A DNA stretch of 23,251 nt from a virus. This document shows positions 3,136 through 19,992 of the stretch, piece after piece. The notes under the pieces were generated by a model. The model worked only from the letters and a program-made list of their open reading frames with translations. It did not search any database and was not told the DNA's origin. A program made the position numbers and the translations under genes. Every line of letters starts with the position of its first letter. The stretch's first letter is position 1. The stretch covers positions 1 through 23,251 of IMG/VR virus record IMGVR_UViG_3300025120_000583. One strand, given 5' to 3'.

Positions 3136-6100
3136 TTAGAAGTCGTACTGGTCTAAGATGCTTCTCTCAAACTCAGTGGTTGTAATCCCACCGCGCATGT
3201 CGCCAGTAGTCCGCTCAAAGGTGCGAAGCGAGTTTGCTTTTGTATCCGCGGTGATGACCTTCTTGCGAGTATCGGCATCTTTTGGCAGACCTGCGTTGTA
3301 CTCTTGTATGAGGCGCTCGACCTTAGCCAGCTCGTCCCTATCACCTTCACGGATAGCCATGTTACGGCGACGTAGTAGTTTGGTCCTTTCGCCGTTTACA
3401 GCATCCGCACGGCGGCGAGCGTTTTTGTTTGCCTCCAGCTGCTGAATATACGCTTGTGGTGCGAAGCCTAGACCCTGCATGACCACGTTGTACGGATTGA
3501 TGTCTGAAGTAATTGCGTCACCGCGTCGTGTTGTTGCGCCTTCTGTAGCGAATCGGAAGGACTTCATACCGTTTCGTATGGATGCAGGCATCATGGCTTC
3601 AACACCACGGTACACTTCACCTTCAGCCACCTGCCCAATACCGCGCTCGACGCTCAACCCTACACCGATAACTGGGCCACCAAGCTGCTCTATTAACGTC
3701 CACAAGGCGCTCTGATCTTTGTCGATGATAGGCGAACGATAAAGCAGGCTGTTAAGAGAGATACGGTTAGCTAAGTCTACACCTAAAATCTCATTTGCAA
3801 GCCCGCCCCAGATACCTTCGCCGTAAAACTGACGCTGCTGGGTTTCGAAGTCGTCTTCGTCATCATCTGCAAACATGTCGTACATAGCGCCGATTGCACC
3901 CATCATTGGCATGCCGCCCATACCCGCAAACAAACCAGTAGCGATTAGGAAGTTTGCGCCGCCCTTACGAGCTGCTTTGCTATTGTCGGCTACCAGCTGC
4001 GCTTCTTCGCGAGATATGCCTCTATCCTTCATAATCGCGTCCACGTTGGTTGGACCCGCGGACTCCTTTGCCAACTTAGCCATCATATAATACTTACTGA
4101 CCGCGAAGCGTTTGAAGAGGAACAAGATATTCCCGATTGGCCCCTGTGCTATAATCGGACGCCCCGCCGCTGCGGTAGAGCCTAGAGTAAACTCCGTGCT
4201 GTCAATCGCTTTCTGCGCCGCTGCGCGATAATCCTGCTCGGATAGCTGACCTTTCTTACGCTGCAGATTTTGAACCTCTAACATGTAAGCAGCTGTGAGC
4301 GTTGTCTCGCGGTTGAACCGTTCTGAGTGGTGGAACATAAAGCTCGAATACTTATTTACGGTCTCCATAGGAGCACTGCGTCCAACTTCCAAATCTTCCT
4401 GCACCATGGACTGATTGAACTGGCCTTGGTCGATACCCATAGAGATAAGTATATCTGCACGGACGTTGCGCAACGTCTCTGGCAAGTTGTTTAGGTCGTA
4501 ATTGGAGATAGATTTTCCAGCTACACCCATGTCTATTTCTTGCTCTACCGGCTGACCTTCTGGGCCTGTAACCATAACCGTGCGTTTGCTAGGCGCTCCC
4601 GCAAACAATTTAGTAGCGGACCCAAATGCTTTGCCAGTATTACGAATACCGTGCGAACCCGCGAGTACGGGCATGGCGCTCATGGCAACGTCGAAAAAGG
4701 TGATCGCTGCTGAAGAGAAGTTCAGACCCATCGTGAAGCCGAAACCTAAGCTGTTTACGACTTGCGAGTACTGCGGCACGTTAGGGCTAGACGCAAAACC
4801 AGCCATTTTATCCATCTTGTTGGCCATCATAGCGGTACTTGGATTCTCTTTGTACGGTTTCAGCTTTGCTCGGAACTTCTCGATCTCCGCTGCAGACTTC
4901 ATTTGCACCAGCTGCCTGTTAAGATCACGCCCCTTTTCTTTCATCATAGTGTAGGCATCGAATTCCATGCCCCCCATGCCTGTGGGCGTTACATCCCCAA
5001 TAAATCCTCGAACACCCTTACGGCGGCGTAGGTTCTGCAGGAACGAACGCTCGGGCATTGCGTCTAATGACAAGTCAACAAGGTCTTGCATTACCTTCTT
5101 GTAGCCCTCGTTAGTCTTGAACTCCTGTTCGTTAAACTCGACCGACTTCAGAATATCACGGATGAACCCACTGCTAGGCACTTTATCGAAGCTCATAGTT
5201 TGCGAAGATGTTGTAAGCTCTATGCCAGAGTCAAACGTATCGCCCTGAGATTTGTTGTACTCAAGCACCATATCGCTGGCCTGCTCGGCCTTACGCAATG
5301 TAGGGAAATACTCTACAGCCCGCTCAGAACGCCCGTCTTCGTCGATAAAGTTGTACGCCAGTCGATATTTACCCTTACGCATAAGTGGGAAGTACGGGCG
5401 GATAACCCCAGAATCCTTCTGCAAAATCTTTCTGAGCGATTCAAAAGCGTTCTGCCGCAGCGTCGGGTCTGAAATCGTGGCTTCCAAACGGGCCTCTAAC
5501 GCAGCGATGATATCGTCATACGTGTCTTGGAAGTAGTTCCGCATCTGCTTGTAGAAGTCTTGTCCCTCCTCATCCAGTTTTCTGAATTCCGCCTGCAACT
5601 TATCATACTCCGGGGAGCGTTCTGCATCGTCCCGAATAGTTTTCATGTACGCAGCATCTGTTCTCGACGGGTCAACCTTCAGGTAGGTACTTTGCGGGAT
5701 TATGTTGTTGAGGATAGCAGCCATCTCAGGTTTCTTGCGTTGCCACTTATGGAAGTTCCGCAAGATAGAGTCGAGCACGTCAGACTTTTTACGAAGCGCA
5801 CCGCTCTGCTGTTTGATAAGTAGGTTAAGCTCTTCCGCAAACGGGATTTTGCTTTTGGCCATATCAGTCAAGATGTTTACAGGCAGCATGTCCAGCGCAA
5901 AACTTCTAGCCTTGGGCGATATGCCTTCATTGTAAACAACATCCGCTAGGTCCGCGACTTTAGCCGAGGTCTCTGGAGCAAGATTAGCGGCGCTCTGGGC
6001 TAGTTTGTTTGCTCCGGCTTTAGTGGCAGACAGTAGCATCATCGAAGGCGCTGCTCGTGTAGCGGGGGACGGCGTTAGCATGCCGTTGATGATACGGTCT

Positions 6101-9100
6101 ACCTCGTCAAGCGCGCTGCCTATCGTTTTCGGCTGCTTACCCATAATCTTGCGCACAATGTTGCGCACAGCCGTAGTAAATTTATCCCAGCCAGAAACCC
6201 TACCACCATCAGTCTTGAGGAACGCTAACGCACTCTGGAACTGCGGGTTACTAAAGGCTTCGGCAACAAACTCGTCGAGATTGCGAGTGCCGTATACTTC
6301 GCCGAATTGAGCGCGCACTGCGTTCAACAAGCCTTGTAACTGTTTGGTTTGCGGTAAGGCTGGGTTTGCCAAAGACGCCGAGGTAGCTGCGTGGGTCATC
6401 TCGTGCAGAATAGTATGCACGTTCATGCCGTTGTTAGCGTCAAGGTAAATCGTATTTGTATCAGGCTCAAACAAACCAGCAGCAGTGCGCCCTGCTACAG
6501 GAGAGATATCGTCCATCACCTGCACTTTAGTAGTGCCGACAACTTCGGCCAATCTACCTGCGATCTGACGGATACGGCCTACTTGGCTTGTGGCCGCAAT
6601 AGCGTTGAGGGCAAACTGCAAGTCGCCACGTTGTAGAGCGTTCTGTATGCTAGGCAGTAGAGCCATGTCCAGACCATGCACGGGGTCGATAAGCAAGAAG
6701 CCTAGCTCGTTCTGGCTGTACGATAGGTTGTCGTAGAACTCTTGCGCGTCTACTTTTGTAAGTAGTTTCCCCTCGGCTCGCGTATCCTCGTAGGCATACA
6801 CGTTACCTTCTTTGTCAGTATACGTATATGTATCGGCGGCAACCGTTTCGTTACTACGAACTTTACGCCGTTTAAAATCTATTTCCGCTAAATAAGACTC
6901 GAGCGAAGTCTGGCCCTTTATCGGCTTGAAGGTTTTAGTCACGGGTCCAGCGGTGCGTTCACCAACAAGTTGTCCTGTAGCTCCAGCGCGTAAAGATTGA
7001 TCCGGCTCCGCAGGGGCTTGATAGTTTACTTCTGGAGACGCAAGGAAGCGGTTCAGCTGGTTCTTGAGGGCGTTATCCTCTTTTTGCTGGATGGACTTAG
7101 CGGCCTTAACCACACCAATCACGGCATCGGACGGATTATACTTAGACGTATTCCGTCTGGCTAATACAGCCGCGTCACGGGTAACAGCCATGGCACTGTT
7201 AGACATGTTGGCCTTTACCCACCTACGCGCTTCCATGGCGGCTTCTTGTGTCATACCCTCATAAAACTTAAATTCTTTTGGCCCGTAATAGAACCTACCG
7301 TCTATGTCCCCACCCGAAACTTTTTCGCCTTCTCGAGTCTGCTCTTTTGGACCCGTTACACTGACCGAACCCATTTCATCAAGGGCGTCTACGGGCCTAC
7401 GGAACCGCTTAAAGAACAGTTTTGCTGCTCTAGCATTAGCGTTTGCGTCGTCCGTCAACTGCGTATTTGAAGTTTTAAGTAGGGCTAAAATAGCACCTTT
7501 TTCTGTCGAAGTGGTAATGTCCGGTAGAGACCGCTCATTTACTTGCGTGTCGTGGTACTCTCGTACCCCCTCATTTTTCTTAAACGCAAACCTACGACCA
7601 AGCTCGGCTTGGGCAACTGCATTTTGCTCAGTCTCCATCGCCTGTATATCAGCCTGTGGTAGAGAAGCGCCGATTAATGGTGCAGTGCGCGGTGCGGGTG
7701 CCACAGGTGCAGGGATGTTTTGCCCTGCCGTACCTAGTTCTTGGCCCGGTGCAGCGTTTCGTAAGTCGGGCTGCGGAGCGGGGGCTTGGAGTGTAACCGG
7801 CTCGGTGACGATTGCATCGACTTCTTGCGCGAGGTCTGCAACTGCTTCCGGGGATACATCTTTTAGTGTATCGGACTCCTCTCCTGCTGATACTTTAGAT
7901 ACGCCATCAGGTGACAAATCTCTTCCCACTGAAGCCTTGTTAGGTGTTGCAGGGCCTCGGGAATCTCCAGCTGCACTTCCATCTCCTCCGAGCTGCGCCA
8001 TGCTAGGTCCACTACCTTCAGCGCCTGTTCCAGCTGCGGCAAGTCCAACTCCAGTTCCTGTTCCCAATCCTGTAGCATCAGTACCCCCTAACAACGCCGA
8101 GATACCCGCTTTTATCTTGTCCGCTTTTGCCTTCACTTTCGGGTTCGGGTTCTTTGCATATTTGAGAAGCTCTTTTTCCACCGCCTTGTCAGTAACGTCC
8201 AACCCAATGATCTTTTTGCGTAACGATGCTTCCCTAAAAACGCCGATCTCGTCGAGCATCTCTTCAGTGACTGTTCGTTTTGCACGGAACTCGGCTGCAG
8301 CCTGATCGAACTTTTGTTGGGTACCCTGCTCGGTGGCGGGCTTTACAACTTCAACGGTAGGCGCAGCTTCAACCTCGGGTTCTGCAGCGGTTTCGGCCTC
8401 GGGTTCTGCAGCTTCAACGGTAGGCGCAGCTCCAACCTCGGGTTCTGCAGCGGTTTCGGCCTCGGGTTCTGCAGCGGTTTCGGCCTCGACAGCAATCTCT
8501 TCTGCTGTCTGGGCGGGTTCAACAGTAGTTTCTTCTTTCGTTCCCGTGGTGGATTCAACAGTAGTTTCTTCTTTCGTTTTCGTAGTAGTGGGCGTAACAT
8601 CCGCAGGCTTGTCGCCAAATGCGCCAATAGTAGAGCGTGTACCGCCACCGATCAGACCACCTGCAATGGCAGCTTCACGATATTCCGCAATAGCTTCTTC
8701 GCTGTCGATAGGCAGGCCAGCTTGTGACCGCTCCAGCATTTGCTGACCGACTTCGGTTAGTCCTTCAGAAGTAGCACCGCCACCGGCACGGGATATTGTG
8801 CGGGTAAATATGGACTTGCCGATGGGTTTAAGAACACCACCTAGCAACAACTTGTCAGCTACACCTTCGAGTGCCGCTTGGCCGAAAGTAGCGACGAGCG
8901 CATCGCTCACATCAACTCGATCTTTTTTGCCCGCTGCGACTTCGTCTTCCTGCCGTTGGATGTTGTTACCAAACAGGATCGGCGCAGTTACAACACCGGC
9001 AGCGCCAGCACCGATAAGGAACGGAGCGGCCACACCTGTAGCACCAGCTAGAACAGGAGCAGCGACAGCAGCGCCGAGACCCAAACCGAGTTGTGGTATT

Positions 9101-9525
9101 TGCTCACCAACAAGTTCACCCGCGTAAGTCAACGCCGAGCCAATACTATCGACGTCAGTAGACTGCATGCGTTCAGGTTGGGTTAAAGATAAGCGCCCTA
9201 GCTCTTGCCCGGCGCGTTCTTCTACACCTTGACCATAATTCGCAAGGAACCCAAGACCAGTCTGCTCCCCAAGAGTGCCGACTGTTTCACCAACAGCTTG
9301 CTTGATTTGCTGCGTACCACGATCAAAACCACGACCAAGAGCAGTGCCATCGTCAAATTCTATCTCGGTACCATACCGCGCTTCGTAATCTTCAAGAAAC
9401 GCGGTTCTATCCTGCCGGATTTGGCCCGCCAGTCTAGCAAACTCTTCCTCTGTTGGAACGTCTCCAACAATACGCAGGTCATATCCTTGCCCGGTTTTAG
9501 GATCGTCGTATTGATAAACGCCCAT
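3136..9525 (-). CDS. Giant virion/ejection-type protein with zinc metallopeptidase motif
   Basis: A 2129-residue polyvalent phage protein, probably packaged in the virion and ejected with DNA (inferred from size, architecture and neighbours). Visible parts: a Gly/Ala-rich hydrophobic stretch at about 145-186 that could enter a membrane; an acidic Thr/Glu/Ala/Pro linker at about 310-395 built from tandem repeats; an Ala/Gly/Ser-rich low-complexity stretch near 480-530; a zincin motif HEMTH (1041-1045) followed by DEFVAEAF (E1085 or E1089 as possible third ligand); long charged helical segments; and a C-terminal region with GPIGNILFLFKRFA and a second hydrophobic Gly/Met-rich stretch. The ATG has AAGGTGA five bases upstream. 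It is the last gene of the minus block; no terminator was seen for this strand. It could be the counterpart of T7 gp16-type ejection proteins, but no transglycosylase motif was recognised. Confidence 0.8.
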   Translation of the reverse strand: MGVYQYDDPKTGQGYDLRIVGDVPTEEEFARLAGQIRQDRTAFLEDYEARYGTEIEFDDGTALGRGFDRGTQQIKQAVGETVGTLGEQTGLGFLANYGQGVEERAGQELGRLSLTQPERMQSTDVDSIGSALTYAGELVGEQIPQLGLGLGAAVAAPVLAGATGVAAPFLIGAGAAGVVTAPILFGNNIQRQEDEVAAGKKDRVDVSDALVATFGQAALEGVADKLLLGGVLKPIGKSIFTRTISRAGGGATSEGLTEVGQQMLERSQAGLPIDSEEAIAEYREAAIAGGLIGGGTRSTIGAFGDKPADVTPTTTKTKEETTVESTTGTKEETTVEPAQTAEEIAVEAETAAEPEAETAAEPEVGAAPTVEAAEPEAETAAEPEVEAAPTVEVVKPATEQGTQQKFDQAAAEFRAKRTVTEEMLDEIGVFREASLRKKIIGLDVTDKAVEKELLKYAKNPNPKVKAKADKIKAGISALLGGTDATGLGTGTGVGLAAAGTGAEGSGPSMAQLGGDGSAAGDSRGPATPNKASVGRDLSPDGVSKVSAGEESDTLKDVSPEAVADLAQEVDAIVTEPVTLQAPAPQPDLRNAAPGQELGTAGQNIPAPVAPAPRTAPLIGASLPQADIQAMETEQNAVAQAELGRRFAFKKNEGVREYHDTQVNERSLPDITTSTEKGAILALLKTSNTQLTDDANANARAAKLFFKRFRRPVDALDEMGSVSVTGPKEQTREGEKVSGGDIDGRFYYGPKEFKFYEGMTQEAAMEARRWVKANMSNSAMAVTRDAAVLARRNTSKYNPSDAVIGVVKAAKSIQQKEDNALKNQLNRFLASPEVNYQAPAEPDQSLRAGATGQLVGERTAGPVTKTFKPIKGQTSLESYLAEIDFKRRKVRSNETVAADTYTYTDKEGNVYAYEDTRAEGKLLTKVDAQEFYDNLSYSQNELGFLLIDPVHGLDMALLPSIQNALQRGDLQFALNAIAATSQVGRIRQIAGRLAEVVGTTKVQVMDDISPVAGRTAAGLFEPDTNTIYLDANNGMNVHTILHEMTHAATSASLANPALPQTKQLQGLLNAVRAQFGEVYGTRNLDEFVAEAFSNPQFQSALAFLKTDGGRVSGWDKFTTAVRNIVRKIMGKQPKTIGSALDEVDRIINGMLTPSPATRAAPSMMLLSATKAGANKLAQSAANLAPETSAKVADLADVVYNEGISPKARSFALDMLPVNILTDMAKSKIPFAEELNLLIKQQSGALRKKSDVLDSILRNFHKWQRKKPEMAAILNNIIPQSTYLKVDPSRTDAAYMKTIRDDAERSPEYDKLQAEFRKLDEEGQDFYKQMRNYFQDTYDDIIAALEARLEATISDPTLRQNAFESLRKILQKDSGVIRPYFPLMRKGKYRLAYNFIDEDGRSERAVEYFPTLRKAEQASDMVLEYNKSQGDTFDSGIELTTSSQTMSFDKVPSSGFIRDILKSVEFNEQEFKTNEGYKKVMQDLVDLSLDAMPERSFLQNLRRRKGVRGFIGDVTPTGMGGMEFDAYTMMKEKGRDLNRQLVQMKSAAEIEKFRAKLKPYKENPSTAMMANKMDKMAGFASSPNVPQYSQVVNSLGFGFTMGLNFSSAAITFFDVAMSAMPVLAGSHGIRNTGKAFGSATKLFAGAPSKRTVMVTGPEGQPVEQEIDMGVAGKSISNYDLNNLPETLRNVRADILISMGIDQGQFNQSMVQEDLEVGRSAPMETVNKYSSFMFHHSERFNRETTLTAAYMLEVQNLQRKKGQLSEQDYRAAAQKAIDSTEFTLGSTAAAGRPIIAQGPIGNILFLFKRFAVSKYYMMAKLAKESAGPTNVDAIMKDRGISREEAQLVADNSKAARKGGANFLIATGLFAGMGGMPMMGAIGAMYDMFADDDEDDFETQQRQFYGEGIWGGLANEILGVDLANRISLNSLLYRSPIIDKDQSALWTLIEQLGGPVIGVGLSVERGIGQVAEGEVYRGVEAMMPASIRNGMKSFRFATEGATTRRGDAITSDINPYNVVMQGLGFAPQAYIQQLEANKNARRRADAVNGERTKLLRRRNMAIREGDRDELAKVERLIQEYNAGLPKDADTRKKVITADTKANSLRTFERTTGDMRGGITTTEFERSILDQYDF
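8349..8474 (-). repeat. Two tandem 63-bp repeats in the acidic linker
   Basis: Bases 8349-8411 and 8412-8474 match except for one base (T versus C in GCTTCA/GCTCCA). A third partial copy of the CGGTTTCGGCCTCG part follows. The unit is 21 codons, so copy number can change without breaking the frame. It encodes the Glu/Ala/Pro/Val-rich linker at about residues 351-393 of the giant protein. Confidence 0.95.
8518..8578 (-). repeat. 36-bp period repeat encoding KEETTVE
   Basis: A 25-base stretch starting TTCAACAGTAGTTTC occurs at 8518-8542 and again at 8554-8578. It gives two copies of KEETTVE twelve residues apart. It adjoins the 63-bp repeats and belongs to the same linker. Confidence 0.85.
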
Positions 9526-15453: not shown

Positions 15454-16074
15454 CTACGTTAGCCACCCATGTATTTTCTTAGTCTGCTCCACGCGATCGT
15501 CTAACCCGTGATACCCGCCGTTCACCTTGCGCGTGATCCGTTTAATGGTCTCGGCGTTTACACCGTCATCCGCAATAGCGAATAGCCCGTTCTTATGAAA
15601 AAACCATAGCGCAGTTTCAAACGCATACTTATTAGCTAGTAAATCGGGGTCATCTAACACTTCTGGTAAGTCCATATCGTTTGCAAACGCGCGGACATTT
15701 GACTTGCCTGTGAGTTGAAGGAAGCCTTTTCCAGAAAATACAAACCCGTCATTTGATCCCTCTGAATTCCCCATTCGACCATTGTAAACTTTGTTTGCGA
15801 GACCTTGCGGGTTTTTGGCATACGGCTTTGCGTCGTCAACCGTTGGAAAGCGCGAGGGCCAAACAGCTTGAATGCGCTCAGGGGTTGAGTAATACAGACC
15901 CTCAGTCGTGCGCTTAAAGCCGCCGCTTTCGTGATGAGCCTGCCCAAGCAGGTGCGCGCCTCGTTCAGGAGGCAAGTTAAAATGCTTTGTGATGGCACGA
16001 GCTGTGTTCGGCCCAAAACTCCCATCAGCAGTAACGCCAACCCGCCCTTGAAGCACTTTCATTGCCTCGCTCAT
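15454..16074 (-). CDS. GH19 (chitinase/lysozyme-like) endolysin
   Basis: A 206-residue peptidoglycan hydrolase for host lysis. The N-terminus VLQGRVGVTADGSFGPNTA (8-25) resembles half of a peptidoglycan-binding repeat. The GH19 core follows: LLGQAHHESGGF with catalytic Glu49, TTEGLYY with the second acidic residue Glu58, GKGFLQLTG (115-123), and VNGGYHGLDDR (184-194). There is no signal peptide or membrane anchor, so it depends on a holin. The frame is open 50 codons upstream, but ATG 16074 is chosen because AAGGAG lies seven bases before it and the upstream stretch overlaps the holin gene. It lies 16 bases after the holin stop and one base before the acetyltransferase start. Confidence 0.92.
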   Translation of the reverse strand: MSEAMKVLQGRVGVTADGSFGPNTARAITKHFNLPPERGAHLLGQAHHESGGFKRTTEGLYYSTPERIQAVWPSRFPTVDDAKPYAKNPQGLANKVYNGRMGNSEGSNDGFVFSGKGFLQLTGKSNVRAFANDMDLPEVLDDPDLLANKYAFETALWFFHKNGLFAIADDGVNAETIKRITRKVNGGYHGLDDRVEQTKKIHGWLT

Positions 16075-16081
16075 TTCATGT

Positions 16082-16087
16082 CTCCTT
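16082..16087 (-). promoter_or_regulatory. Shine-Dalgarno site of the endolysin gene
   Basis: AAGGAG on the minus strand lies seven bases from the ATG at 16074, inside the short gap after the holin stop. It rules against the longer start at 16224. Confidence 0.85.
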
Positions 16088-16090
16088 CCA

Positions 16091-16480
16091 TCACTTCCGC
16101 TTGAATAAAGCCTGCGCGCCCCGAACACCGAAACTCGCTGAAATTGCAATTCCAAGGCTGTAAAAATACCAATCCGGCGCTTTGTTGAGCTGCTCAAAGC
16201 CACGATCAACCCAACCTTCTGCACCGGGAATCCAACATAAAATCAATGGGATAGACAAAACAATTACGAACCACTCGTCTTTCCAGCTTGACTTTGCGCC
16301 TTCTGCCATGATGCGTTCCCAATCGGCAACGCTAGTCTTCTCAGAAAGAAGTATCTGTGCTTTGGCCTTAGCCTCAGTCAACTTTAACTCTGCACTAGCG
16401 GCGTTCTTGTCAGCTTTACCCTGCAGCCACGAGCCTGCGAGGTTGGCTATTGGTCCCAGTGCGGCGGTGAATATACTCAT
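16091..16480 (-). CDS. Holin, three-TM (gene-transfer-agent-release type)
   Basis: A 129-residue membrane protein that resembles the 3TM holin family named for gene-transfer-agent release. A weakly hydrophobic N-terminus (MSIFTAALGPIANLAGSWL) is followed by a charged coiled segment (25-60), a strong membrane segment at about 69-86 (EWFVIVLSIPLILCWIPG) and another at about 103-120. The C-terminus is basic (FKRK). It directly precedes the GH19 endolysin, which has no export signal, so it should make the lesion that lets the enzyme reach the wall. Its ATG overlaps the previous stop as ATGA, tying its translation to the EF-hand gene. Confidence 0.85.
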   Translation of the reverse strand: MSIFTAALGPIANLAGSWLQGKADKNAASAELKLTEAKAKAQILLSEKTSVADWERIMAEGAKSSWKDEWFVIVLSIPLILCWIPGAEGWVDRGFEQLNKAPDWYFYSLGIAISASFGVRGAQALFKRK

Positions 16481-16791: not shown

Positions 16792-16906
16792 CTTCTATAC
16801 TCCTTGCGTACGCAATCGCGTACCTCTTGTGGTGCGTTATTATAACAACTTTTCCAGCTTTGTCATATACAACGTAATCCCCGCGTTTATTCTGGTATAA
16901 CCTCAA
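16772..16906 (-). CDS. Possible 44-codon overlapping gene with TTG start
   Basis: An open frame from TTG (16906) to TGA (16772) encodes 44 residues including GDYVVYDKAGKVVIIT and HKRYAIAYARSIE, a beta-strand-like, charged sequence that reads like real protein. It fills most of the gap between the 54-codon gene and the EF-hand gene, overlapping each by about 20 bases. Against it: no clear Shine-Dalgarno before the TTG, no ATG or GTG in frame, and part of the sequence is the palindrome at 16808-16823. If real it would be read by coupling from the 54-codon gene. Function unknown. Confidence 0.4.
   Translation of the reverse strand: MRLYQNKRGDYVVYDKAGKVVIITHHKRYAIAYARSIEDGGKET
16808..16823 (-). 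repeat. Palindromic hairpin just before the EF-hand gene's ribosome site
   Basis: GTACGC (16808-16813) and GCGTAC (16818-16823) form a perfect 6-bp inverted repeat with a 4-base loop. It ends two bases before the AAGGAG site (16800-16805) of the 104-codon gene. In mRNA it could affect ribosome access. The same bases lie in the possible 44-codon gene, where the palindrome reads RYAIAYAR. Confidence 0.6.
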
Positions 16907-17051
16907 AGCAATACGTCACTATATTGGAGTTAGTGATAAGAACGCTTGCCTCATCTTTTGCACGCGCGCACGCACTGCTGTCCCCAAATTGACCAAGCTC
17001 ATAGTGCGTTACGTTGTTATTCATTATTTGGAACCAAACCAATATCCACAT
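16887..17051 (-). CDS. 54-residue protein of unknown function
   Basis: A short gene encoding a 54-residue protein with a brief hydrophobic start (MWILVWFQIM) and two cysteines (C29 and C47), ending TYCFEVIPE. The ATG abuts the stop of the 157-codon gene (TAAATG), and AGGGGA lies about eight bases upstream inside that gene, so the start is well supported. The hydrophobic stretch is too short to be a clear signal peptide. No family recognised. Position between membrane proteins suggests a lysis-cassette accessory, by context only. Confidence 0.65.
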   Translation of the reverse strand: MWILVWFQIMNNNVTHYELGQFGDSSACARAKDEASVLITNSNIVTYCFEVIPE

Positions 17052-17550: not shown

Positions 17551-17790
17551 CTACCGCTCCATCAAGCGGTCTATTTTTTCTTCAAGGCGGTCAAACTTAT
17601 TCATAATTTGCGATAGCACTTCAGAGCTGTCAGCCTTTGTAACATACTCTTTAGCCATTTCCTCGCGAGTTCTATTCAACAGAATAGTGACGCGCCTTAT
17701 CTCATCGTGCTGGGATTTAATCCACCAACCCAAACCGCTTATTACTGCGGCGAATACCAAGTTCAAAATTGCGTCCATTTCTATTGCCAT
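17551..17790 (-). CDS. Small one-TM coiled-coil protein
   Basis: A 79-residue protein with one membrane segment at about 6-24 (DAILNLVFAAVISGLGWWI) and then a charged helical region to the C-terminus, with heptad-like MNKFDRLEEKIDRLMER. The layout matches small phage holin-associated or inner-membrane spanin proteins, but no catalytic or lipoprotein motif is present. Its ATG overlaps the stop of the 27-codon ORF as TAATG; there is no strong Shine-Dalgarno nearby, so coupling probably supplies ribosomes. An in-frame ATG at codon 5 is an alternative start. Confidence 0.7.
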   Translation of the reverse strand: MAIEMDAILNLVFAAVISGLGWWIKSQHDEIRRVTILLNRTREEMAKEYVTKADSSEVLSQIMNKFDRLEEKIDRLMER

Positions 17791-17873
17791 TAGAAGACAC
17801 TACCACCTATAGGGGCAGGGGGCGTAATAGGTACGGAAACATCTTTACGCTCAGGAGTCTCTTTATCAGTCAT
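17790..17873 (-). CDS. 27-residue micro-ORF coupled on both sides
   Basis: A 27-codon frame starts MTDKETPERKDVSV and ends VPITPPAPIGGSVF. Its ATG overlaps the previous stop as ATGA and its stop overlaps the next ATG as TAATG, so it exactly fills the space between two genes. The product is charged at the front and proline-rich at the back, without a membrane segment. It could be a real micro-protein or only a device carrying ribosomes to the 79-codon gene. No family recognised. Confidence 0.55.
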   Translation of the reverse strand: MTDKETPERKDVSVPITPPAPIGGSVF

Positions 17874-18124
17874 ATCACTATCCTCAATTCACCTGTTGAA
17901 GTTTTATATACATCATTTACGGTAAGTCCGCCAGTAAGAGCTGCGGCGTTGTTCGCAAATACAGAAAGCCCCGTCAAATTAAGTGTATTCGCTCTTACAG
18001 GTCCGGGGTTTGATATCTGCTGGGCGTACACAGAAAAAGATCGTGTAACCTGCGCCGTATAGGTTTGGCTATACTCAGCTGGGGCTTGAGCAAAGAACGG
18101 TACAACAGCGTTACTTATTGACAT
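17870..18124 (-). CDS. Small tail-module protein
   Basis: An 84-residue protein, Ser/Thr/Ala-rich and beta-like, ending GGLTVNDVYKTSTGELRIVI, a C-terminal pattern I have seen in marine phage structural proteins. The frame is open 17 codons further upstream, but the ATG at 18124 is chosen because it overlaps the stop of the gp10-like gene as TAATG; the longer form would overlap that gene by 52 bases. Its stop overlaps the micro-ORF start as ATGA. Probably a minor structural protein; evidence is composition and position. Confidence 0.65.
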   Translation of the reverse strand: MSISNAVVPFFAQAPAEYSQTYTAQVTRSFSVYAQQISNPGPVRANTLNLTGLSVFANNAAALTGGLTVNDVYKTSTGELRIVI

Positions 18125-19992
18125 TACCTTCTCCCGTCGGGTCTTAGGTCGATGCGGGTCGTGCCAAGTCTCCACTGAGTGTTTACTTGATTAGATTCAA
18201 CTTTTATAGAAACCGCACGTCCCCGCATCCGAACGTCAAGCTGCTCAGTATACTGCGCTATCGGACTAGATACAGTCCGTACGGCGCTCCCACTTTGGGT
18301 CTGTGTGGTTCCACTGCCGGGGTAAGTCCGTGCATTTAGCGTGAACGTGGCCAGTGGATTGCCAGTAGAGTTTCTAAATCCTATATCAGGTATAACTCGT
18401 TTAACGGACATGAATTGCTCTCCGTCGCCGATATCAACGCCACTGGACTCTATGTAACTGTTAAGCGGGCTTGGAGGGTTCGTACTTCCGTCTGAAAATC
18501 CAGTTTCATGGAAGTAAATGTTGCCGTCAGGAGATGCAGCGATAGGCAAACCAGAAACGCCACCCTGATCCCAAGCGGTGCGGTCAATAGTGCCATAAAA
18601 CCATATCTTTTCGGCGTAGTTATATACAACGTAGCGGTCGTTATTTTGACTAGATGCGGAGGGATAGAACCACCAAACTTCGTTAAATTCAGTGTTGCTG
18701 CCCGCCGTGACCTTACTAATCTGAGAAGTGTTTACATTATTAAAGACGTATTCTTCTACAGGGCACGGTATAAGGCTTACGTTACCATCGTAGCGATAGA
18801 ATACATCGTTGCCCATCCAGTAAACGGCATCTCCGACGGCTACAGCAGCGTTCTGACTCAATATCGAAGTGTTGGTCGATACCTCACTTAGACCAAAGAT
18901 AAACGGTGCCCCTATAAATTGCATGGCACTAACTGATCTATCAGTAAATACGACGACCTGTTGTTTTGTCTGCACTGCAGCGACAATCTCAGAGCCAGTC
19001 CCGATACGTAGTTCTCCGGCGGTGTTTGTTGCTGTCGCCGCCCAATCAGTAAAACTCTCTTGATCCGAAAACCGTATAGTTAGCGGGTCTAGGACGCCCG
19101 GGTCTGCTTCAGGATCGCAACCAAAAGCGATAACATGCCGATCTCGTTCGGAAACCAGCACGATATTAGCCGCTTGGGGCTGGGCATTACCACTTATACT
19201 AGTAATGTTTACAGCGCGCGAGGATGTCCCCGCAGAGGTGTCCCAGTAGTAAATGCCCCCACCACGGGGGTTTGCCAAAAGGTCTTCACCAAAATTATCC
19301 ATAGACCAAAGTCGGAGATTAGCCCCCGGGATAGTGACGGAAGCTGCAGAGTTCCAAGCCCCACGCCCCCAAACACCCGCGCCCCAACCGCTACCTACAG
19401 CGGCGGAGTCTAGCCCAGTGTTGATCTGATACGCCGCAGCTACAGAAGCCCCACCACCTGTTGCAAGAGACGTGGCGGTCCCACCAGTATCTACAATGTA
19501 TTTATTAGCGTCTACGACCTCAACAACTTGATGTTCTTTGTTTATTTGGGCCGCTGTTATACCGCCTACGGCAGTGGCTCCAGATAACGTCACATAATCC
19601 CCAAGAAAAACTTCGTTACTCGAATCAGTAATCTTTATATACCCATTGCCTGAAGGATTTCCTACATTTACTGTTACAATAGGATTTGCTCCGAGCGTGA
19701 CAGAGCGACGAATGGGCGTAATGTCTATAGGTTGGGCACCATCTAAAACGTAGAGCTTTTGATTAGTTCCCGCACCTACAAGTCTAGTCCCTATTAAATT
19801 TGTCCAAGGGTGGAGATCACGGCACGTTCCAAGCATCGGGGAAGACGTGAGTTTAGTCCATCCGCCGATTGTCTCCGGCATACCCAAACGAAATCTTATT
19901 TTGTCGCCGTCACGCCATCCGCCTTCGTTGGTGTAATCCGTAGCATCTCGCACGATACCCGGGCGAAACTGGAGCTTTTGTAGTGGCATCAT
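18124..19992 (-). CDS. P22 gp10-like tail / packaged-DNA stabilisation protein
   Basis: A 622-residue structural protein that resembles the phage stabilisation family (P22 gp10), which closes the portal and forms part of the short tail. It opens with LQKLQFRPGIVRDATDY, then NEGGWRDGDKIRFR and GMPETIGGW (22-45), a pattern I recognise from marine podoviruses. The middle has beta-rich repeats such as GAGVWGRGAWN and WWFYPSASSQNNDRYVVYNY. The end has RMRGRAVSIKVES, then WRLGTTRIDLRPDGRR. It is longer than P22 gp10 (about 470 residues). Two ATGs stand together; GGAGG is three bases from the first (19992) and six from the second (19989), so the second may be the true start. Confidence 0.7.
   Translation of the reverse strand: MMPLQKLQFRPGIVRDATDYTNEGGWRDGDKIRFRLGMPETIGGWTKLTSSPMLGTCRDLHPWTNLIGTRLVGAGTNQKLYVLDGAQPIDITPIRRSVTLGANPIVTVNVGNPSGNGYIKITDSSNEVFLGDYVTLSGATAVGGITAAQINKEHQVVEVVDANKYIVDTGGTATSLATGGGASVAAAYQINTGLDSAAVGSGWGAGVWGRGAWNSAASVTIPGANLRLWSMDNFGEDLLANPRGGGIYYWDTSAGTSSRAVNITSISGNAQPQAANIVLVSERDRHVIAFGCDPEADPGVLDPLTIRFSDQESFTDWAATATNTAGELRIGTGSEIVAAVQTKQQVVVFTDRSVSAMQFIGAPFIFGLSEVSTNTSILSQNAAVAVGDAVYWMGNDVFYRYDGNVSLIPCPVEEYVFNNVNTSQISKVTAGSNTEFNEVWWFYPSASSQNNDRYVVYNYAEKIWFYGTIDRTAWDQGGVSGLPIAASPDGNIYFHETGFSDGSTNPPSPLNSYIESSGVDIGDGEQFMSVKRVIPDIGFRNSTGNPLATFTLNARTYPGSGTTQTQSGSAVRTVSSPIAQYTEQLDVRMRGRAVSIKVESNQVNTQWRLGTTRIDLRPDGRR

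Follow-up and report, generated by a model that had tools for sequence, protein, structure and literature searches.

Comparison of viral homologues showed that a 27-codon micro-ORF in a 23,251-nucleotide stretch of DNA from an uncultured marine phage (IMG/VR record IMGVR_UViG_3300025120_000583, hereafter the window) evolves as a protein-coding gene under strong purifying selection at the protein level. From its sequence, the encoded microprotein looks like a ribbon-less, tail-only version of a zinc-ribbon protein that in related phages occupies the same slot behind the tail nozzle gene, and we rate it as a small accessory protein of the tail module that would be reduced to a docking tail.

A sequence-only reading of the window had described a frame bridging its neighbours by ATGA and TAATG, and the frame is present on the minus strand as claimed (Table 1). 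Its ATG overlaps the TGA of the upstream gene by four nucleotides (ATGA) and the final A of its TAA is also the first base of the 79-codon gene's start codon (TAATG), within a chain of four overlapping genes that runs from the nozzle homologue through the 84-codon and the 27-codon genes to the 79-codon gene. Since the junction between the nozzle-like gene (18124-19992) and the 84-codon gene is TAATG-overlapped too (18126-18122), the apparent lock on both sides of the micro-ORF is ordinary phage gene packing. When the 79-nucleotide spacer was dinucleotide-shuffled 20,000 times with the ATGA start held in place, 814 shuffles reproduced the one-nucleotide overlap with the downstream start and 1,030 put the stop end no more than 4 nucleotides from that start. 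The bridging geometry by itself is a 4-5% event and modest evidence for a gene; the conservation goes far beyond chance.

Table 1. Features of the micro-ORF locus. Positions are those of the window.
Feature	Position	Strand	Sequence or basis
27-codon micro-ORF	17790..17873	minus	MTDKETPERKDVSVPITPPAPIGGSVF then TAA; homologues intact in 49/49 contigs, purifying selection
Conserved C-terminal tail of the microprotein, residues 10-27, KDVSVPITPPAPIGGSVF	17793..17846	minus	resembles zinc-ribbon slot tails in end-anchored alignments
Shine-Dalgarno-like GAGGAT	17880..17885	minus	6 nt ahead of the micro-ORF ATG, within the last codons of the upstream gene
84-codon gene directly upstream, ends GELRIVI, constant partner	17870..18124	minus	GELRIV[VI] homologue upstream in 49/49 contigs
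622-codon tail nozzle homologue	18124..19992	minus	phmmer to solved chains, PHROG 3287
79-codon gene downstream, variable neighbour	17551..17790	minus	family next in 29/49 contigs; weak PHROG matches 462, 12220, 7885

Intact versions of the micro-ORF were found in 49 viral contigs of IMG/VR, with lengths of 27 (34 contigs), 28 (7), 31 (7) and 35 codons (1) and with all three kinds of stop codon represented. The IMG/VR scan with the micro-ORF family gave 39 contigs, a wider micro-ORF alignment added 8 (7 of them previously reached via the upstream gene) and two more were reached via the upstream gene; 26 of the 49 were first found by the micro-ORF alone, the remainder also or first by a neighbour gene. 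Acceptance of a frame in this count demanded ATGA, on which none of the 49 failed. The 27-codon form occurs in 19 distinct DNA versions (among 61 loci, which are redundant and include the window). Across these versions third codon positions vary at 26 of 26 codons, first positions at 7 and second positions at 9. Compared with the other 18 versions, the window gave 11 finite dN/dS values of 0.034-0.119, one comparison without amino-acid change and six with saturated dS, and the all-pairs pN/pS was 0.185. As third positions vary, first and second positions are mostly fixed and dN/dS is low, selection acts on the protein. The glycines G23 and G24 are, taken together, encoded by GGT, GGC, GGA and GGG, and because all four codons are found there we judged it unlikely that Gly-Gly is kept merely as a Shine-Dalgarno sequence for the next gene.

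Both comparisons proposed in the sequence-only reading, a search for the same frame in related phages and an estimate of synonymous against non-synonymous change, thus came out on the side of a gene, with 49 intact versions and the finite dN/dS values above. Its suggestion of an unannotated phage microprotein is borne out by the purifying selection, the intact frames, the retained ribosome-binding site described below and the lack of any PHROG match at E<=10. Frameshifts or stops in relatives, which it had named as the sign against a gene, were absent from the frame-carrying contigs; one related clade has a five-codon frame only and keeps the upstream gene.

The upstream gene is the constant partner of the micro-ORF, and the ATGA overlap joins the micro-ORF to a gene ending in GELRIV[VI] in all 49 contigs. 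The ORF list began this gene in the window at a GTG, for 101 amino acids. Started instead at the ATG at 18124, behind GAGAAGG, it has 84 amino acids, and this form, which is kept in relatives, is the best reading of the gene. An AlphaFold2 model of the 84-residue protein has a helix (residues 20-38) and a small C-terminal hairpin (mean pLDDT 78, pTM 0.39). A fold search with the model gave no match in the PDB at E<=0.001 and, in BFVD, top matches solely to uncharacterised or unnamed viral proteins, and one pattern-based scan of 84,980 bacterial and archaeal genomes with the protein alignment found no relative. The last codons of the gene carry the ribosome-binding site of its neighbour, as the Arg-Ile codons AGG-ATA of the window form a Shine-Dalgarno-like AGGAT. 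Counted over distinct sequences of GELRIV-ending upstream genes alone, which are related so that the counts are not independent, this arginine codon is AGG in 34/34 sequences with a tail-only slot and 19/19 with a ribbon slot (53/53 together), as well as in 9/9 with only a five-codon slot frame, and CGC or CGT in 4/4 without any slot frame. Among the other arginine codons of the same genes AGG accounts for 20 of 150. The GELRIV ending also occurs in another gene arrangement, in L223-L225, where the protein that carries it is followed immediately by a 668-codon protein (start offset -1).

Upstream of this pair lies the nozzle homologue. Residues 319-473 (about 150) of the 622-codon product match the solved chain 9nwi, named 'Capsid and scaffold protein', with a phmmer E of 1e-11, and the same residues match 8zkm and 8zkk, which are named nozzle, with E 9e-5. 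PHROG 3287 (virion structural protein) matches over the whole length, and homologues are labelled 'stabilization protein' in several phage records. A literature search by entry code for the nozzle structures returned no relevant paper. The nozzle homologue ends just upstream of the slot in 49/49 contigs with tail-only forms and in 75/75 testable ribbon loci, the latter taken from the best 80 of 129, of which 5 had too little DNA for the nozzle test. Comparison of the loci showed a fixed module that consists of the nozzle gene, a small gene of 81-99 codons and then the slot.

Related phages differ in what the slot holds: a zinc-ribbon protein (about 77 residues) that ends in a conserved tail, a tail-only form of 27-35 residues or, in some, no gene or a five-codon frame. 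A scan with the upstream protein covered the best 80 of 96 loci, 53 with the GELRIV end and 27 without, and the 53 slots comprised 14 tail-only forms, 21 zinc-ribbon proteins and 18 with neither. The slot of the sister clade mostly encodes the ribbon protein, whose last 20 or so residues resemble the microprotein. The slot ribbons share with the micro-ORF the place after the nozzle gene and the small gene, an M[ST]D start and, where the upstream gene ends in GELRIV, the ATGA start, with a 4-nucleotide overlap or a 7-nucleotide gap elsewhere. They are mostly 75-77 residues long with four cysteines (CxxC...CPxC) that are invariant in 19/19 aligned proteins and are wholly missing from the 27-residue protein. 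The latter has no cysteine and hence is a tail-only variant, not a zinc-ribbon protein. Ribbon tails are of the kind KRHTTITVTMPQAAGGGTL, and some end in ISGEA without GG; in the AlphaFold2 model of a ribbon protein the last eight residues are without confident structure. When the last 20 residues of six tail-only forms were compared with those of three slot ribbons and a zinc-ribbon protein of phage DSL-LC04 in end-anchored alignments (300 shuffles each), all 24 cross pairs had a shuffle fraction of at most 0.007, with representatives chosen by hand after the likeness had been noticed. The slot forms have the tail in common and differ in the head.

Mapped on a tree of 52 upstream proteins, the three slot states require 4 changes, compared with a mean of 21.1 after shuffling. 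The tail-only form of 35 residues, L195, is nested within the ribbon clade with high support in this tree, which is built on few columns and has no outgroup root. The five-codon frame, ATGAAGGATATT(T/C)TCTAATG or a one-base variant, accounts for 11 of the 18 loci with neither form (best 80 of 96), and in the upstream-protein tree its clade groups with L181, a tail-only form. In L169-L178 and L205 the homologue of the 84-residue gene is followed by ATG AAG GAT ATT TTC or TCC and TAA (MKDIF or MKDIS). We read the five-codon frame as a probable loss of the slot gene; what is left would be a remnant of that gene or a leader that serves coupling alone. Since this clade carries the same upstream gene and only the five-codon frame, the microprotein is not essential to the module. 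In L111 (about 4019-4670, on the same contig as L201), a GELRIV-type small gene whose slot start is broken is followed by part of a gene of the other small type (ending GTVTVSTT) and then by a complete zinc-ribbon gene; this mosaic slot looks like a recombination scar.

Among 12 phage-record regions around a nozzle homologue, the slot tail pattern was seen only in phage DSL-LC04, in its zinc ribbon domain-containing protein WJZ48122.1 (L233:855-1064). Like the slot proteins, WJZ48122.1 has two cysteine pairs and a C-terminus, QNVSIHTTTIPAAGGGVM, similar to the slot tails. In contrast to them, its gene is located before the holin and endolysin genes and upstream of the nozzle homologue, not after it, and DSL-LC04 is a freshwater phage assigned to a gammaproteobacterial host, whereas the slot-carrying phages are marine.

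Several other explanations of the micro-ORF have to be weighed against a tail-module protein. The frame is merely 27 codons long and, given ATGA, its bridging is matched by 4-5% of shuffles, but the 49 intact contigs, the strong purifying selection and the retained ribosome site refute a chance open frame, to which we assign a practically negligible probability. The sequence-only reading had alternatively proposed a coupling device that meters the 79-codon membrane protein; the hydrophobic N-terminus of the 79-codon product fits the reading as a membrane protein. The next gene, however, belongs to the 79-codon family (recognised by motif) in only 29 of the 49 contigs. In the other 20 it is an 87-codon membrane-like gene (5) or a gene of 208-427 codons (13), or the contig ends (2). 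Conversely, the micro-ORF is present in 7 of 80 loci among the listed matches to the 79-codon protein, with one or two loci not judgeable. Because the downstream gene changes and so few of these listed loci carry the micro-ORF, metering of the membrane protein is not its main role, and the amino-acid sequence itself is selected. A broader version, in which the frame is only a translational-coupling bridge and the peptide is irrelevant, would be in line with the overlaps at both ends of the micro-ORF and with the five-codon slot frames (11 loci, best 80 of 96), which keep ATGA, TAATG and, in 9/9 distinct sequences, the preceding AGG codon. A leader or coupling ORF would be expected to keep its frame and leave the peptide free to vary, yet codons change here while amino acids stay (finite dN/dS 0.034-0.119), and the tail of the microprotein is homologous to that of a larger protein. 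With dN/dS well below 1, coupling is refuted as the full explanation and we regard it as highly improbable; translational coupling may operate alongside the protein function but does not account for the conservation of the sequence. A component of a lysis cassette, for example a small regulator of holin timing, appears very unlikely as well. The 79-codon membrane-protein family in 29/49 contigs, the membrane-like 87-codon gene in 5 more and the endolysin-like gene further on (15454-16224, PHROG 181) would suit it, but 15 of the 49 contigs differ downstream (13 genes of 208-427 codons and 2 contig ends), the partner that stays constant (49/49) is the upstream one, and by inspection the peptide is without a transmembrane stretch or lipobox.

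We also considered that the slot encodes a regulatory or host-takeover protein of the late operon, with a ribbon that binds nucleic acid or polymerase and a tail that serves as an effector peptide. Zinc-ribbon proteins are often regulators, the four cysteines are invariant in the 19 aligned ribbons, the ribbon forms weakly match an FmdB-like regulator among the PHROGs (E 0.014) and the DSL-LC04 protein, also weakly, a DksA-like PHROG family (E 0.0005). Nevertheless, tail-only forms keep the tail and drop the ribbon. Moron-type regulators usually move about, whereas the slot follows the nozzle module at every testable locus, a point limited by the DSL-LC04 ribbon protein, which has a similar tail and sits elsewhere. 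On balance we consider a regulator unlikely.

The reading that we prefer, if tentatively and at somewhat less than even confidence, is an accessory part of a short tail that would act in the virion or during tail assembly and whose C-terminal tail would dock on the nozzle or on the 84-residue protein in the manner of T7 gp7.3. In the same place related phages carry either a folded domain with the tail or little beyond the tail, and this suggests that the tail is the part that does the work. The short charged head would be a dispensable filler, since the 35-residue tail-only L195 is nested inside the ribbon clade. The tail would comprise a beta-strand-like KDVSVPIT, a proline-rich turn and a GG-x-hydrophobic-aromatic end (GG-x-V-F) fitting into a groove of the nozzle or the 84-residue protein. 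A docking peptide would be the best explanation because 27 residues leave little room for a folded domain and KDVSVPIT and GG-x-V-F are conserved; the dock is probably the nozzle or the 84-residue protein because these are the fixed neighbours.

T7 gp7.3 (PHROG 1320; chain 9jyz_1) provides the precedent. According to PMC11784390, the C-terminal loop of gp7.3 (residues 84-98) is present in six copies, each of them anchored to two nozzle subunits where nozzle and adaptor meet; the protein outside this nozzle-binding tail, including its N-terminal part, is unresolved, and gp7.3 is proposed to help in seating the nozzle on the adaptor. Like the microprotein, gp7.3 is the product of a small, late structural-region gene, and its conserved tail, with K-x-[LV]-S-V, Gly-Gly and a hydrophobic end, may be comparable to the slot tails. 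This tail, KKSLSVARS[SA]GGG[IL]NI, is kept in 6/6 gp7.3 proteins, all of T7-like phages. In likeness to the slot tails the gp7.3 C-terminus ranked first of 56 (of 60 annotated T7 proteins) and second of 197 T7 ORFs, with a non-gene ORF above it, and the similarity is weak, with a shuffle fraction of 0.118 for the window form and 0.004-0.44 over ten tails. In contrast to the microprotein, gp7.3 has 99 residues and a lysine-rich head, and its gene lies one gene from gene 8 (portal, annotated head-tail adaptor) where the micro-ORF follows the nozzle gene. gp7.3 matches PHROG 1320 and the 27-residue protein matches no PHROG family at E<=10; a search for gp7.3 itself in seven long related contigs, run without a positive control, gave no match. 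In view of the weak similarity, the different gene order and the lack of a family match, we propose that the microprotein may work like gp7.3, not that it is gp7.3.

A wider proposal, which we hold to be quite unlikely as it stands, is that short-tailed phages possess a class of nozzle anchors with an invariant C-terminal tail of about 18 residues and any head, of which the microprotein would be a minimal complete virion part. In T7 gp7.3 the head would be a lysine-rich DNA-binding chain, many marine phages would have a zinc ribbon in its place, and the microprotein, several copies of which would line the tail channel, would have almost nothing. If the tail binds the nozzle, the principle of gp7.3 would extend to uncultured marine phages in a directly testable form.

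Gene callers have difficulty with genes of this length, and the 27-residue protein matched no PHROG or Pfam family. Large catalogues of small proteins exist, in which the sequence may be present. Searches of 50,697 GenBank phage records with the 27-residue (E<=10), 77-residue (E<=0.1) and 84-residue (E<=0.01) proteins, short queries of limited sensitivity, found no relative, and thus no cultured phage is known to carry these proteins. Sequence comparison of the 27- and 84-residue families with solved structures gave chance-level matches only, and four peptide strings of the slot family had no match in the full texts searched. At the DNA level the only GenBank phage records matched were those of Roseobacter phages CRP-902 and CRP-345, in the 79-codon and 157-codon genes.

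Genes nearby in the window are endolysin-like (15454-16224, PHROG 181), DNA-ejection-protein-like and acetyltransferase-like. The 2129-codon gene at 3136-9525 (minus strand) has matches to a DarB-like antirestriction PHROG and to further very large families, whose function is mostly unknown. A 54-codon frame on the minus strand (16887-17051) starts directly behind the 157-codon gene with MWILVWFQIMNNNVTHYELGQF and is probably another real small gene, because a clearly similar 59-codon frame occurs in L124 and L125.
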